From Alphaproteobacteria bacterium PA4 (GTDB lineage: Bacteria; Pseudomonadota; Alphaproteobacteria; Sphingomonadales; Sphingomonadaceae): DNA of 64,000 bases. A program made the translations under genes and the position numbers. This document shows positions 55,596 through 61,900 of this stretch, piece by piece (the first letter of the stretch is position 1; every line of letters begins with the position of its first letter). Where the stretch lies: the NCBI GenBank assembly GCA_002256005.1, contig NKIQ01000015.1, positions 1 through 64,000 on the forward strand. The letters run 5' to 3'. Below the pieces are notes generated by a model. It searched no databases, was not told the DNA's origin, and worked only from the letters and a program-made list of their open reading frames with translations.

Positions 55596-55601
55596 CTTTT
55601 T

Positions 55602-55733
55602 CCTCTCCCTCGAGGGGAGAGGCGACTCGCGCGCCAGCGCGGCGGGTGAGGGTGATACCGGCTGTGGTCGCAGAAGCAGAACCCTCACCCGCTCGGGCAA
55701 TGCCCGAGTCGACCTCTCCCCTGAAGGGAGAGG
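55602..55733. repeat. Palindromic intergenic repeat, family 2, copy 1
   Basis: A 132-base element with complementary ends: CCTCTCCC-tcga-GGGGAGAGG hairpin at the left, CCTCTCCCctgaaGGGAGAGG at the right, with inner GGGTGAGGGT and ACCCTCACCCGCTCGG. A related copy lies at 61759-61900. It occupies the gap between the exported hydrolase and the convergent GntR gene and may terminate both. Confidence 0.85.
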
Positions 55734-55742
55734 TGGATGCGT

Positions 55743-56185: not shown

Positions 56186-56749
56186 ATGCACCGCCTGTTT
56201 GCCGCTGCCCTTCTGATCTCGCCCGCCCTGCTGCCGGCCGCCGCCATGGCGCAGGATGCCGGCAAGCTGGCGCAATGCGCCGCCATCGCCCGCGATGCCG
56301 AGCGGCTCGCCTGTTACGACGCCGCCATGGCCGATGCCTCCCCCGCCGCCCGCGCCGCCAGCGAGGCGCGGGCGAAGGAAAGCGCCCGCATCGCCGCCGA
56401 GGAAGCCGCCGCCGCCGCTGCCGCCGCCAAGGCCGCCGCCGCCGCCGCCGAACAGGCCAAGCGCGAAGCCTTTGGCGCCGAAACCGTCACCAGCCGCCCC
56501 GACCGTTTCAAGCCCCCCGCCGACGAGATCCAGACGGTGGAGGCGGCGCTGGTCGAGGTGCTGAGCAACCGCTCCGGCCTCGGCGTCTTCGTCCTCGACA
56601 ATGGCCAGATCTGGCGCCAGGTCGACACCGCCAGCCTCCCCAACCTCCGCCCCGGCGACAAGATCACCGTCGAACGCGCCGCGCTGGGGGGGTATCACCT
56701 GACCTTCCTGAAGCAGAAGCGCTGGGTGCTGGTGCGGCGGATGCGGTGA
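56186..56749 (+). CDS. Hypothetical exported protein with alanine-rich coiled coil
   Basis: A 187-residue protein: signal peptide (HRLFAAALLISPALLPAAAMA), a short KLAQCAAIARDAERLACYDA motif found at the start of many small alphaproteobacterial periplasmic proteins (two cysteines, perhaps a disulfide), a highly alanine-rich charged helix of about 60 residues, and a beta-rich C-terminal domain (GVFVLDNGQIWRQVD, RPGDKITVERAALGGYHLTF). Function unknown. Confidence 0.72.
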   Translation: MHRLFAAALLISPALLPAAAMAQDAGKLAQCAAIARDAERLACYDAAMADASPAARAASEARAKESARIAAEEAAAAAAAAKAAAAAAEQAKREAFGAETVTSRPDRFKPPADEIQTVEAALVEVLSNRSGLGVFVLDNGQIWRQVDTASLPNLRPGDKITVERAALGGYHLTFLKQKRWVLVRRMR

Positions 56750-57024
56750 GGGGGGCGGGCGGCTGTTTCTGAAATTACCTTCTAGCTCGATGACGTTAGC
56801 GTATGGCCATAACTGGGACGAAGCGGTCATGACCGGCGGCGTTGCTGTCCGTTAGCTTTTGTCAGAAATCGACGTTTTTACTGTGAGTTAGCGGTTTATG
56901 GAATGGCTAGGATAAGGTCGATCGTCGAATGTCCGATGCTTCCGCTTAAAAAAGCAAAGCTGTTGTCCAGAGTTTTATTGCCTGACGGCCATCCTCGCCT
57001 CGCCGCCAAGTGATGTTTGACCTG
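56750..57024. other. AT-richer gene-free stretch at the left edge of a small island
   Basis: No coding region is supported. Base composition changes sharply near 56765 from GC-rich to mixed, with TTAGCG/GTTAGC repeats (56796-56802, 56849-56855, 56887-56892). Likely the junction or remnant of an insertion. Confidence 0.45.
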
Positions 57025-57309
57025 TTAAGGGCGGGACTCGATCCACGTCCAAACCGATTTTGCGAGCCACCCTGCACGGTTGCCGGGGAAGACTTTAGAG
57101 ACAAAAAGCCGATCATTGTCATCGAGCTTCTGACGGAGATAGTCGGATACTTGCTGAGCGCTGTCATTTGTTGAAATCCAGCGCACAGTTTCCAGGCGAG
57201 GATCTTCGGTGTTATCGTACTTGGCAAGATGCTTGAGGAAGTTCGCGCGAGCGATAGTGTAGGGCGCACCTTCCTTGTTAAGATTCCACGTAACAACGTA
57301 AATAGCCAT
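57025..57309 (-). CDS. Small protein resembling the SinR/Cas2-like ferredoxin-fold group
   Basis: A 94-residue protein beginning MAIYVVTWNLNKEGAPYTIA, with VRWISTNDSAQQVSDYLRQKLDDNDRLFVSKV in the middle. This follows the pattern of small SinR-family proteins: a (V)(V)(T)(W/Y)DL strand, a W-IST-S strand and a DxDRLFV strand. That group has the VapD/Cas2-like ferredoxin fold and some members are toxin nucleases. No catalytic activity is proven for it. It has a strong ribosome site (TAGGAGGA) and follows the DUF2188 gene after a perfect palindrome. Confidence 0.55.
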   Translation of the reverse strand: MAIYVVTWNLNKEGAPYTIARANFLKHLAKYDNTEDPRLETVRWISTNDSAQQVSDYLRQKLDDNDRLFVSKVFPGNRAGWLAKSVWTWIESRP

Positions 57310-57331
57310 AACTTCCTCCTAAATCAAATAA

Positions 57332-57357
57332 GAGAGGCTCCTTTAAAGGAGCCTCTC
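57332..57357 (-). terminator. 26-base perfect palindrome between DUF2188 and SinR-like genes
   Basis: GAGAGGCTCC-TTTAAA-GGAGCCTCTC is a perfect palindrome 3 bases after the DUF2188 stop; on the minus strand it is followed by TTATTTGATTT. It looks like a terminator that could attenuate transcription into the SinR-like gene. Confidence 0.7.
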
Positions 57358-57359
57358 GA

Positions 57360-57584
57360 TTAACCCTCCGGCGGGAACGGATCGTTGCCGAAGCTGTCGC
57401 GTTCGCGAATCTGGCCGTTACGCCTGTGGATCAGCAATTCGCTTTCTTGATTACGAGCGATGTTGCGCGCCGCCTCAATCGCTTGAGCCTGCGTTTCATG
57501 GACCGAAGTTGCGCGCGTGTTGCCCGCCCCCTTAACCGCCCAACCGCTCTCGTGCGGCACGACATGCTGGTTCTTGCCCGACAT
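57360..57584 (-). CDS. DUF2188 domain protein
   Basis: A 74-residue protein matching DUF2188 across its whole length: NQHVVPHESGWAVKGAGNTR, TSVHETQAQAIEAARNIARN, SELLIHRRNGQIRERDSFGN ending DPFPPEG. Function unknown; such proteins are common in mobile and stress-related contexts. Its ribosome site AAGGAGGTGAT is an exact extended match to the 16S anti-Shine-Dalgarno, implying high translation. Confidence 0.88.
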   Translation of the reverse strand: MSGKNQHVVPHESGWAVKGAGNTRATSVHETQAQAIEAARNIARNQESELLIHRRNGQIRERDSFGNDPFPPEG

Positions 57585-57609
57585 AAAATCACCTCCTTCT
57601 CGGTTATCA

Positions 57610-57644
57610 TCGAACGAGTGTTAGATTAAACTAACGTCGAACGA
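57610..57644. promoter_or_regulatory. Divergent operator region of the island
   Basis: The octamer TCGAACGA is directly repeated at 57610-57617 and 57637-57644. Between them GTTAG-N6-CTAAC (57620-57635) is a perfect inverted repeat within AT-rich DNA. It sits in the 128 bases separating the DUF2188 and XRE genes and is the natural binding place for the XRE protein. Confidence 0.55.
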
Positions 57645-57712
57645 CTTGTCAAGCGGTTCGTCCAGTGCGTAAGATGCACCTAACGGAAAAAGTTGAGGTT
57701 GGTCAGCATCCC

Positions 57713-58030
57713 ATGTCGTTGGCGTCGAAATTGAAGAAGTTGCGTGGGCAGACCCGTCAATCGCTCCAGCAGGTCGCCGACGGGGTTGGTATTTCCAAGG
57801 TTCACGTCTGGGAGCTAGAAAAGGGGTCGAGTAAAAATCCCAGCATGGAAATCGTGAAGCGCCTCGCAGAGCATTTTGGCGTGCCAACCGCGTACTTTAA
57901 CGATGATTCTATCTACCCTAATGAAGCCAATGCACTACAGTTTTTTCGTGAGTTTGACGGCCAGCTTTCCGAAAAGGATTGGGAGGCCTTGCGGGGCGTG
58001 GCGGAAGCGCTGATGGCCAAGAAGCCATGA
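57713..58030 (+). CDS. XRE family helix-turn-helix regulator
   Basis: A 105-residue protein: LASKLKKLRGQTRQSLQQVADGVGISKVHVWELEKGSSKNPSMEIVKRLAEHFGVP is a complete HTH_3 domain (shown in two halves), followed by a short acidic helix region (LQFFREFDGQLSEKDWEALR). ATG 57713 starts directly before the domain; ATG 57674 and GTG 57665 are in frame upstream. It overlaps the ImmA gene by four bases (ATGA), the arrangement of HTH-ImmA regulator pairs. Confidence 0.88.
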   Translation: MSLASKLKKLRGQTRQSLQQVADGVGISKVHVWELEKGSSKNPSMEIVKRLAEHFGVPTAYFNDDSIYPNEANALQFFREFDGQLSEKDWEALRGVAEALMAKKP

Positions 58031-58893
58031 ACGTTGACTTGAGGATGGATTTAGCTGATTGCGGCTCCCCAGAACGGCTACTTCAGGTCCTTTTCGGTTA
58101 CTATCCTGATATATCGAGGCGGGTGCCTCTTGAGGCCATCGCGTCCGATGTTGGGATAATCGGTTTTACGACCCTAGAAGTTGAAGGATTCATAGGCGGC
58201 TTGACTGCCGATCCAGATAAAAATCAAGGAATTATTCTTACTAAAGATGGGCTATCGAATAAGCGAAAGCGATTTACCATAGGTCATGAGCTCGGGCATT
58301 TTCTTATTCCGACGCATAATTATCAAAGACAATGTAGTAAACAAGACTTGGAAGAAAACAGTCGGACTAGCACATACAAAAGGCAAGAATCCGAGGCTAA
58401 TCGATTTTCGGCAGGCTTGCTCATGCCAAAGCCGCTTTTTATTGCAGATATTGATAGTTTGGGTAGCATAGATGCAGGCCATATCCGCCAACTAAGCGAC
58501 CTCTACGATGTAAGTATGGAAGCTGTTGCCAACAGGTACGTAGATCTGTCGCCAGAGACATGCGCCGTAATTTTCTCGTATCAGGACGTGGTTCGCTACA
58601 GCCGAACATCAAAGGATTTCCCGCCGCTTGATATAAGGAATGGGTCACAACTGCCTCTTGCATCTTTGACGCGTCGATACAGAAGTACAGGTGGTACATC
58701 GCAGTGGGTCAGCCAGCACGGTGGCATTTGGCTTTTGCCTCAGTATAATGTGCGGTTTCCCACTGTGCTTGAGCAGGCAGTCTGTCAGTCGAATGGTTTC
58801 AAAGTCACCCTCCTTTACATTGATCAGGAAGGAGAAGACCAGGAAAACGAGTCTCGGGAACTCGTAGCAAGATGGACTCCGTACCTTCGTTGA
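58027..58893 (+). CDS. ImmA/IrrE family metallopeptidase
   Basis: A 288-residue zinc peptidase. The HExxH motif is in RKRFTIGHELGHFLIPTH, followed by RQESEANRFSAGLLMPKPLF, the second conserved block. In ICEBs1 ImmA cleaves the repressor ImmR encoded beside it, and IrrE/PprI acts similarly on DdrO; here the partner would be the overlapping XRE gene. The C-terminal 120 residues are not recognised and may sense a signal. AT-richer than flanking genes, consistent with acquisition. Confidence 0.88.
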   Translation: MNVDLRMDLADCGSPERLLQVLFGYYPDISRRVPLEAIASDVGIIGFTTLEVEGFIGGLTADPDKNQGIILTKDGLSNKRKRFTIGHELGHFLIPTHNYQRQCSKQDLEENSRTSTYKRQESEANRFSAGLLMPKPLFIADIDSLGSIDAGHIRQLSDLYDVSMEAVANRYVDLSPETCAVIFSYQDVVRYSRTSKDFPPLDIRNGSQLPLASLTRRYRSTGGTSQWVSQHGGIWLLPQYNVRFPTVLEQAVCQSNGFKVTLLYIDQEGEDQENESRELVARWTPYLR

Positions 58894-59129
58894 AGGGGCC
58901 TCAGACACTATTTCAATGGGCGCCGTACCCAGCGTGCGGTGGTCTATCTTCAAAATTTCTTCTCATGAGAAGCCTTGCTCTTAAGCTTAGTGACCGAGAC
59001 GAAGGTGCGTAGCTTCCGGGCTATGCGACAACAAACAAATGGCGGGTTTCAGCAATTGCAGCCGTTCACGCGCCGATGGGGAACGACTTTAACTGGATCG
59101 AAAGCCGCCGATTCCGCCGGTCGACCTCC
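58894..59129. other. Gene-free right edge of the island
   Basis: No supported gene. Composition returns to high GC by about 59110, at the end of the DUF1489 gene. No tRNA fragment or clear attachment-site repeat was seen. Confidence 0.4.
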
Positions 59130-59528
59130 CTACATCAACCACAACCCTTGCAACTCCCGCACCATCCCCACCGGCAGCGCATCGCCCGTCGCCGCCGCTT
59201 CATCCGGCGGCGCGTCCGCGTCTTCCAGATAGCGCCAGCCCTGATGCGCGCGGCGCGGCACCGGCGCCACCGGCACCGGCGGGCCGCCATAGCCGATGCG
59301 GCATTTTTCGCCCCATTCGGTCATCACCATGGCCAGTGACACGATCGGCTGGCGGGCGACCAGGCGGTGCTTGATGATCCAGAACAGCGAGCCGCCGATC
59401 AGTTCCTCGGCGCGTTTCGGCATGAAGCGGGTCAGCGAGCAGGGGGCGTCGCCCCAGCGCTCCGCCTGCAAGCGCACCAGCGTGTCGAGATCGGGGCAGC
59501 CGACGGCGACCTTGGTCAGGTGCAGCAT
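59130..59528 (-). CDS. DUF1489 family protein
   Basis: A 132-residue protein of unknown function found almost only in alphaproteobacteria: LHLTKVAVGCPDLDTLVRLQ, TRFMPKRAEELIGGSLFWIIKHRLVARQ (in two parts) and the aromatic HQGWRYLEDADAPPD. The start lies one base after the mgtE stop, so it is probably co-transcribed with mgtE. Confidence 0.88.
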   Translation of the reverse strand: MLHLTKVAVGCPDLDTLVRLQAERWGDAPCSLTRFMPKRAEELIGGSLFWIIKHRLVARQPIVSLAMVMTEWGEKCRIGYGGPPVPVAPVPRRAHQGWRYLEDADAPPDEAAATGDALPVGMVRELQGLWLM

Positions 59529-59529
59529 G

Positions 59530-60936
59530 TCAGCCGAGGTGACTGACGCCGACCAGCGTCGCAAGGCCCAGGAAGGACAGGAAGCCCATCGTGTCCGTCG
59601 TCATGGTGACGAACACCGATGAGGCGACGGCCGGATCGGCGCCGAAGCGATCCAGCGCCACCGGCACCAGCACGCCGGCGAGGCCCGCCACCATGATGTT
59701 GAAGATCACCGCCGCGGCGATGACCAGCCCCAGCACCGGATTGGCGAAGATCAGCGCGGTGCCGACGCCCATCAGCAGCGCGATGGTCGAGCCATTCAGC
59801 ATCGCCACGCGGATTTCGCGCCAGATCGTTCGCCGCGTATTCGATTCGGTCAGCTGGTTGGTGGCCAGCGCGCGCACCGCCACCGCCATCGTCTGGGTGC
59901 CGGCATTGCCGCCGACGCTGGCGACGATGGGCGTCAGCGCCGCCAGCGCCACCAGCTTTTCGATCGTCGGTTCAAAGGCATAGATGACCGAGGAGGAAAT
60001 CAGCGCGGTGCCGAGATTGGCGACCAGCCAGCGGATGCGCGCCTTGTAGGTTTCGGCGATCGGCTCGTTGATGTCGCCATCGCCGGCGCCGGACAGTTTC
60101 AGTGCGTCCTCCCCGGCTTCTTCCTGGATGATGTGGACGATGTCATCGACGGTGATGACGCCGACCAGCCGGTCATTGCCATCGACCACCGCGGCCGAGA
60201 TCAGCGCATATTTCTGGAACTGCAGCGCCACTTCCTCCTGGTCCATGTCGACCGGGATCAGCGTCTGTTCGCGCTGCATGATGTCGGCCACCGCGATGCC
60301 GGGCGGGGTGGTGAGCAGCCAGGACAGGCGCATGGTGCCGATGGGCCGGCGCTCCGCATCGATGACGAAGATTTCCCAGAAATCGGTGGCCGGATCGATG
60401 GTGGCGCGCACCTGATCGATGACCTCGCCCACCGTCATCCCGGCGCTGACCGCGACCAGTTCGCGCTGCATCAGGCGGCCGGCGGATTCGTCCGGATAGT
60501 TCAGCGCCGCCTCGATATCGGCGCGATCCTCCGGCGTCAGCGCGTCGAGCACCTCGCGCTGCTCGTCGTCCTCCAGATCCTCGATGACCGCCAGCGCGTC
60601 ATCGGTATCGAGCTGGGTGACGAGTTCGGCGACTTCGCCGACCGACATGGCGGCGAGCACATCCTCGCGGACATAATCGTCGAGCTCGGCGATGACATCG
60701 GCATCCAGTGCCTCGCCCAGCGCCTCGGCCAACGGGCTGCGCTGCCCTTCCGGCACCAGGCCGAACAGATCGGCGATATCGGCCGGGTGCAGCGGCGCCA
60801 CCAGTGTGCGCACGCCCTCGTCATTGCCGGCGTCCAGCGTGTCGATCACCTGATCGACAAAGGCACGACTCAGCCTGCCCTCCTCAAGGGCATCCCGCGG
60901 GGTATCCGCGTCGGCATGGAGCATGGGTTCGGCCAT
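59530..60936 (-). CDS. mgtE: Magnesium transporter MgtE
   Basis: Mg2+ channel of 468 residues. The N-domain of helical repeats (ALHPADIADLFGLVP-type, DEQREVLDALTPEDRADIE), then two CBS domains (YPDESAGRLMQRELVAVSAG, VDGNDRLVGVITVDDIVHII), the plug helix and five membrane helices with the signature VASVGGNAGTQTMAVAVRAL. CBS domains close the pore when Mg2+ is high. ATG 60936 is chosen; upstream in-frame codons run into a palindromic repeat. Confidence 0.95.
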   Translation of the reverse strand: MAEPMLHADADTPRDALEEGRLSRAFVDQVIDTLDAGNDEGVRTLVAPLHPADIADLFGLVPEGQRSPLAEALGEALDADVIAELDDYVREDVLAAMSVGEVAELVTQLDTDDALAVIEDLEDDEQREVLDALTPEDRADIEAALNYPDESAGRLMQRELVAVSAGMTVGEVIDQVRATIDPATDFWEIFVIDAERRPIGTMRLSWLLTTPPGIAVADIMQREQTLIPVDMDQEEVALQFQKYALISAAVVDGNDRLVGVITVDDIVHIIQEEAGEDALKLSGAGDGDINEPIAETYKARIRWLVANLGTALISSSVIYAFEPTIEKLVALAALTPIVASVGGNAGTQTMAVAVRALATNQLTESNTRRTIWREIRVAMLNGSTIALLMGVGTALIFANPVLGLVIAAAVIFNIMVAGLAGVLVPVALDRFGADPAVASSVFVTMTTDTMGFLSFLGLATLVGVSHLG

Positions 60937-61758: not shown

Positions 61759-61900
61759 CCCCCTCTCCCGCTTGCGGGAGAGGCGAGAGGCGCGCCAGCG
61801 CCCCGGGTGAGGGTGTGCCCGCGTCATGAAACAAGAAAAACACCCTCACCCGCTCGGCGAAGACGCCGAGTCGACCTCTCCCGCAGGCGGGAGAGGGGGG
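61759..61900. repeat. Palindromic intergenic repeat, family 2, copy 2
   Basis: A 142-base element: CCCTCTCCCGcttGCGGGAGAGG at the left, CCTCTCCCGCaggCGGGAGAGG at the right, with internal GGGTGAGGGTGT and ACACCCTCACCCGCTCGG. Same plan as 55602-55733. It lies between the convergent membrane-protein and queA genes, where it may terminate both. Confidence 0.86.

Follow-up and report, generated by a model that had tools for sequence, protein, structure and literature searches.

The 64,000-nucleotide stretch of DNA analysed in this study, hereafter the window (positions 1 to 64,000 of contig NKIQ01000015.1, from Alphaproteobacteria bacterium PA4), carries an AT-richer island of four genes, which we designate A to D. 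This island is probably a horizontally moving cassette of ~1.9 kb, in which a CapH/CapP-like regulator pair (genes C and D) would control a damage-inducible stress or anti-phage response with a Cas2-like effector (gene A). The insert, its core and the four genes are as follows.

56750-59129: insert between a VasI-like gene (end at 56749) and a DUF1489 gene (59130-59564, minus strand), from the comparison of flanks in relatives
57019-58914: core cassette, from blastn similarity to three related loci (L017, L016 and L018)
57025-57309, minus strand: gene A, 94-aa protein of predicted Cas2/VapD fold, WNLN clade (open reading frame (ORF) and structure prediction)
57360-57584, minus strand: gene B, 74-aa DUF2188 protein (PADLOC PDC-S16; PF09954, 6.1e-28)
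57713-58030, plus strand: gene C, 105-aa XRE/HTH repressor, CapH-like (HTH_31/HTH_3; PADLOC capH, 1.8e-18)
58027-58893, plus strand: gene D, 288-aa M78/ImmA-type metallopeptidase, CapP-like (PF06114, 1.6e-15; PADLOC capP, 1.1e-49)

The G+C content of the segment 56760-59110 is 50.5%, against 68.9% for the remaining window, and the lowest value for any other stretch of the same length is 64.6% (50-base steps). An earlier inspection of the letters alone (the sequence-only reading) had proposed that the four genes differ in composition from their surroundings and that two small genes face an XRE-ImmA pair. The former is borne out by the above values, and the latter by the presence of all four ORFs with matches to their families (DUF2188 PF09954, HTH_31/HTH_3 and PF06114), genes A and B being on the minus strand and genes C and D on the plus strand, so that the two pairs diverge. 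The DUF1489 gene on the right flank was present in all 24 genus genomes searched, the window's own counted, and the corresponding loci were obtained for 12 of the 24, of which 11 are not the window's own. In seven of these 11 relatives' loci the VasI-like gene abuts the DUF1489 gene or lies within ~140 bp of it; the gap is ~0.8 kb in one further locus, and the VasI-like gene was undetected near DUF1489 in three. As the two flanking genes adjoin or nearly so in seven of the 11 relatives, insertion is the most likely origin of the island. As regards a tRNA at the insertion, none was found across the window.

The four-gene set recurs in identical order and orientation in three loci, all from Sphingomonadales, namely L016 (Novosphingobium clariflavum), L017 (Sphingosinicella microcystinivorans) and L018 (a metagenome-assembled genome of Sphingomonas), which were among nine loci yielded by a scan of genome contigs with A as the query. 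By blastn, the window matched L017 at 57019-58914 (81% nucleotide identity), L016 at 57020-58906 (83%) and L018 at 57091-58523 (69%), and the flanks of the window cassette are dissimilar to those of all three, with similarity extending no further than 57019-58914. When the L017 genome was searched, a second gene A was detected, the surroundings of which (L284) comprise a complete second cassette, also within an AT-richer patch; over the aligned parts, its identity to the window is 57% for A, 54% for B, 27% for C and 33% for D. The four families, which the sequence-only reading had combined into one module, therefore occur together in equal order and orientation at five places (the window, L016, L017, L018 and L284). 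Purifying selection acts on each of the four genes, with dN/dS (the ratio of nonsynonymous to synonymous divergence) of 0.05-0.15 in the comparisons of the window with L016 or L017 (Nei-Gojobori method); synonymous distances between the window and L018 were saturated for three of the four genes.

The distribution of the cassette is sporadic: any relative of A was found in seven of 396 genomes of the order (own counted), and a relative at E <= 1e-15 in two of 297 genomes from the family to which a Xanthomonas relative belongs. We read 19 loci of the A clade, 11 genomic and eight on viral contigs; all four genes are present at five of them, and CapH/CapP at six, the sixth being L020, which is without B. 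In these counts L024 is included in spite of being near-identical to L023, L293 is the same contig as L119, so that the two were counted as one, and L270 is the same as L017. The gene calls are mechanical ORF picks, and B of L270 was masked by an overlapping ORF in one listing and visible in another.

The reading frames of genes C and D overlap by four bases (ATGA). We placed the start of gene C at the ATG at 57713 (105 aa), which fits better than the GTG at 57665, as the alignment of relatives begins there and the longer ORF would cross an operator. The product of gene D possesses HExxH, a conserved Cys103 and the downstream Glu. The Cys between HExxH and Glu is invariant in all five D sequences and aligns with a Cys of the crystallised CapP (7t5t); in CapP, this conserved Cys acts as a switch. 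A profile built from the five D sequences retrieved 7t5t at 1e-23 with HExxH, the Cys and the downstream Glu region aligned, and the L284 protease retrieved the same structure at 2.6e-57. The island pair thus shares with CapH+CapP controllers an XRE repressor and an M78 protease with a conserved Cys, divergence from the controlled operon, overlapping reading frames, and dyads over putative promoters; it differs in facing a DUF2188 and a Cas2-fold protein instead of CBASS (cyclic oligonucleotide-based anti-phage signalling system) or Bub genes, and the CapP of the window and the crystallised CapP fall into distant subfamilies. According to PMC13373217, both CapW and CapH+CapP are controllers responsive to single-stranded DNA (ssDNA), and one or the other accompanies 219 of 544 Bub operons.

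The expression signals read in the island are listed below.

57315-57320, minus strand: Shine-Dalgarno sequence AGGAGG of gene A (sequence check)
57332-57357, minus strand: hairpin between B and A, 11-bp stem and 4-nt loop, kept in all four close cassettes
57588-57598, minus strand: full Shine-Dalgarno sequence AAGGAGGTGAT of gene B (sequence check)
57619-57636: candidate operator O1, TGTTAGATTAAACTAACG, in overlap with the putative B-A promoter at its -10 box
57625-57652, minus strand: putative sigma-70 promoter of B-A, TTGACA (57652-57647), 16 nt, TTTAAT (57630-57625), read from the sequence
57646-57675, plus strand: putative capH-capP promoter, TTGTCA, 18 nt, TAAGAT, from the promoter scan
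57668-57685: candidate operator O2, CGTAAGATGCACCTAACG, in overlap with the putative capH promoter at its -10 box

O1 and O2 share a CTTGACAAG core and are 49 bp apart from start to start. The pattern GTTAGNNNNATCTWAC, which we composed after both sites had been seen, occurs twice in the 64 kb, both times in the divergent intergenic region, with 0.00 occurrences expected. O1 is present in all three close relatives, and an O2-like pattern in two of the three, being degenerate in L018; in L284, a differing motif, CTACTCCGAA, was found by eye twice around the same CTTGTCAAG core. Across the upstream regions of 27 capH genes, dyads with a spacer of 6 were in excess (53 against 24.5, z 5.6), and those with spacers of 2, 4, 8 and 10 were too (z 3.1-4.8), partly from nested dyads counted repeatedly and from related cassettes in the set (L017 and L270 being one copy). 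The spacer-6 dyad was absent in four of the 27 regions (L106, L278, L279 and L280). The promoter scan returned five such sites against 1.9 in shuffles; it missed the B-A promoter, as its rule demands that the second hexamer have A as its second base. From these sequence features, CapH/CapP-type regulation of the cassette is well supported, and the protease-releasable switch postulated from the letters gains detail in the form of a CapH/CapP-like pair and paired dyads on both putative promoters. Likewise, the perfect ribosome site reported for one of the small proteins corresponds to AAGGAGGTGAT preceding the DUF2188 gene. The hairpin between B and A is conserved with altered sequence in the four close cassettes (z -2.5 to -3.6); for L018 this is the centroid fold, and its stem is shifted, so that the alignment fold gives broken pairs there. 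The hairpin is terminator-like in the window, and we abandoned the idea of a terminator between B and A, as a U tract was unseen in the other three cassettes.

The following scheme would account for this arrangement. CapH would bind the two dyad operators over the -10 boxes, repressing its own gene as well as the B-A operon. By analogy with the homologous systems, ssDNA accumulating upon DNA damage or phage replication would activate CapP, which would then cleave CapH and release the B-A operon, so that B and A are made. A is the likely effector, which may bind or cleave nucleic acid, with B as a small accessory; these roles, and a role in defence, are suggested by association. A would then fill the slot held in sister operons by CD-NTase/phospholipase, ThsB-like TIR or ubiquitin-like E1 genes, and DUF2188 travels as the leading gene in a number of such operons. 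The island itself cannot be identified as CBASS, as no cyclase match was found among its four proteins.

The structure model of A has a pLDDT (predicted local distance difference test) of 90.6, and its structure matches include the Cas2/VapD fold; this fold is a high-confidence prediction, in agreement with the Cas2/VapD-like features attributed earlier to this 94-residue protein. Nevertheless, A differs from the known members of this fold: it is 8% identical to BPSL1038 (PDB 7vxr), and the four genes of the island include no CRISPR or VapX partner. Neither A nor the A-family profile gave a useful match in a sequence search of PDB; a search of the viral library with A gave a single match under 0.001, to an unnamed protein, and the phage collection one weak match. 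On plasmids, 41 records contain a match to A, of which four loci (L012-L015) were read: in two of the four, an Asp-type relative of A comes after a small gene, opposite a WYL regulator, and no such regulator was seen in the other two. CapW is itself a WYL protein (PMC13373217). In enterobacterial plasmids, the small gene between the divergent WYL regulator and the Asp-type relative encodes 56-59 aa (L012 5478-5657 and L015 1185-1355). On one viral contig, a 207-aa gene, nucleoside-phosphorylase-like by eye, lies directly ahead of an A-clade gene (L287 21-644).

Gene B exceeds the Pfam cut-off for DUF2188, which Pfam calls uncharacterised, by a wide margin (97.2 bits against 22). It also matches the PADLOC candidate PDC-S16 at 2.6e-41; that label stands for one candidate protein family, whereas B in the island is a member of a regulated operon with A. 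Of the 289 genomes searched in the class, 28 (the window's own counted) contain DUF2188, with 16 places at E < 1e-12, all of which we read (the window and 15 loci). DUF2188 diverges from CapP or an XRE-ImmA pair at six of the 16 (the window, L085, L087, L088, L090 and L092; five of 15 without the window), the XRE genes of L085, L087 and L090 being named by eye, and from a WYL gene at one (L097). Given ~100 CapP-like places in the 289 genomes, at roughly 3.5 Mb each, ~0.01 such places would be expected by chance within 2 kb of 15 DUF2188 genes, and three were seen besides the window from the CapP and DUF2188 scans alone (G410, G436 and G499). The operons headed by B carry diverse genes: CD-NTase and phospholipase in L275 (an operon also present, with B undetected, in the closely related L274), a ThsB-like TIR gene in L008 and L097, a weak multiubiquitin match with a ThiF E1 in L085, and an unknown pair of 390 and 315 aa (sizes in L092) beside CapH/CapP in L088 and L092. 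Among 36 viral DUF2188 loci, relatives of the 390-aa gene occur in 18 and of the 315-aa gene in nine at 1e-3 (e.g., L212, L228, L231 and L245). Six viral contigs are common to the DUF2188 scan and the viral CapP-profile scan, in which the best 80 of 216 relatives were kept.

The model of B (pLDDT 83) had no useful match in PDB, and a relationship of DUF2188 to YegP (DUF1508) found no support, no YegP entry being among the matches listed for this model. The loci with CapK+CapS and a YegP-like gene, nonetheless, resemble the island in that a small uncharacterised protein follows a damage-responsive controller (a YegP homologue follows in 57 of 443 capKS loci; PMC13373217); they differ in the controller, and a fold link between DUF2188 and YegP was not found. 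DUF2188 is not named in the main text of PMC13373217. Two further arrangements of DUF2188 were observed. In L084 and L091, it is followed by a protein of 206-209 aa with F(V/I)NCPFD near the start, the L084 copy being without a Pfam or PADLOC match. On eight viral contigs (L221, L222, L223, L225, L226, L230, L233 and L237), it diverges from an ImmA-like protein of ~430 aa, which matches the CapP profile at E of about 1e-7 to 1e-8 and is followed by a 175-aa gene, PIN-like by eye, in six of the eight.

A tree built from 29 CapP-like proteases places the window cassette group with proteases beside CBASS-like operons (L271, with a confirmed phospholipase, and L272, CBASS-like by likeness and with a cyclase-like gene named by eye) and beside the DUF2188-ThsB operon L008, and the L284 protease groups apart with L092, L088 and L112. 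A single clade for the five cassette proteases was rejected (approximately unbiased test, p-AU 3.6e-5), and so was one including L020, with CapP beside A and B absent (p-AU 4.3e-76), the tested group having been defined by gene content after the closeness of L284 to 7t5t was already seen. The B-A pair or its parts have thus joined CapH/CapP more than once, or have swapped it. Separately, CapH/CapP pairs diverge from a ParB-like/type II methyltransferase-like gene in L278-L281, L102 and L104, mostly with more genes behind; the methyltransferase gene of L279, the one compared with PADLOC, matches MTase_II (1.8e-94), and the other loci are alike by sequence start, by eye. These loci are a candidate for a further CapH/CapP-linked operon.

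Several observations weigh against a CapH/CapP-controlled cassette with a Cas2-like effector. CapH/CapP is missing beside A at 13 of the 19 A-clade loci, including all eight viral ones; in two of the 13, A is at or near a contig end, three more offer 1.0-1.3 kb of upstream sequence only, and several are near-duplicates. In five loci of the wider A family in Sphingomonadales, CapP and DUF2188 are absent beside A, one of the five having a 62-aa XRE-like ORF, and of the 16 strong DUF2188 places, nine are without a CapP, XRE-ImmA or WYL regulator, one of the nine lying at the end of its contig. Both A and B match phage families of unknown function (phrog_1090 and phrog_3220). As for the regulators, C scores best in NCBIfam against the model of the phage repressor RstR (44.4 bits, under the cut-off of 80), and D of the window as a lone query retrieved CapP in PDB only at 5.8e-9. 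No known defence gene was noticed beside the island in a scan of the direct flanks alone, and the hairpin ahead of A could lower its expression. Finally, Asn9 of the A clade replaces the family Asp at the end of strand 1, a further difference from Cas2/VapD and BPSL1038: Asn is present in all ten clade rows and Asp in the remaining rows of the wider family alignments, the position being judged by sequence alignment and strand end and not by residue-level superposition. As the wider family has the catalytic Asp at this position, classical Cas2 catalysis by A is doubtful and the case for a canonical nuclease is weakened; the earlier description of a VapD/Cas2-like protein holds for the predicted fold, and does not extend to the term nuclease.

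The change to Asn at position 9 bears on the question of whether the cassette serves in defence at all, as the lost Asp position speaks against a toxic nuclease. In a stress or repair cassette, CapH/CapP would induce A and B after DNA damage to help the host, for instance by nucleic-acid binding, with neither killing nor a role against phages. Homologous regulators respond to DNA damage generally, and the border between immune and stress pathways is fuzzy, YegP-like genes being found beside CapK/CapS (PMC13373217). We nevertheless regard this alternative as rather unlikely, because genes of abortive-infection type (CBASS and ThsB-like TIR) are found in sister operons that share this leader and these controllers, and the sporadic distribution resembles that of defence systems more than that of core repair.

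It is improbable that the XRE-ImmA pair, the DUF2188-A pair or both stabilise the island as a toxin-antitoxin or addiction module. The divergent layout, the paired dyads and the protease suit a regulator pair better than a toxin and its antitoxin, and A and B each occur without the other outside the cassette, even though the genes are small, the operon is apparently autoregulated and its carriage mobile, and GhoS (2llz), an antitoxin, ranks fifth among the fold matches of A. XRE-metalloprotease pairs have indeed been termed toxin-antitoxin systems (PMC10538038). A remnant of an ImmR/ImmA-type switch for lysogeny or for an integrative and conjugative element, with A and B as hitch-hiking phage genes, is very improbable in spite of relatives of DUF2188 and A in viral contigs and PHROGs and the 216 CapP-profile relatives in the viral scan, as neither an integrase nor structural genes were seen in the insert, the common unit stops at the four genes amid unrelated flanks with dN/dS far below 1, and CapP lineages vary among copies while A and B stay paired.

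The earlier view of the island as a candidate undescribed module has to be narrowed: regulators of this type are known, DUF2188 is already the PADLOC candidate PDC-S16, and what is new is the variant with the A-B pair. Within a limited literature search, a B-A effector pair under CapH/CapP was not found. It is attractive, albeit only tentatively, to speculate that an Asp-lacking clade of the Cas2 fold was recruited outside CRISPR as an immune-operon effector under DNA-damage controllers, with CapH/CapP joining at least twice, a WYL/CapW-like regulator serving the plasmid sister clade, and DUF2188 being an interchangeable head gene common to CBASS, TIR and ubiquitin-like operons.

Elsewhere in the window, two exact copies of CCTCTCCC-N6-GGGAGAGG lie at 61762-61783 and 61875-61896 (0.05 expected allowing up to two mismatches). 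Similar GC-rich palindromes were seen by eye near 55600-55740, and these are repeats resembling repetitive extragenic palindromic elements.

Damage-sensing controllers such as CapH/CapP flag operons kept off until infection or damage, and the targets of these controllers provide a short route to unknown effectors. In the island, the controlled slot holds a 94-residue protein of predicted Cas2 fold, and the non-CRISPR origin and roles of Cas2 are an open question. As the same A-B pair appears under two types of CapH/CapP, the pair likely has a function of its own, which would be testable with four small genes.

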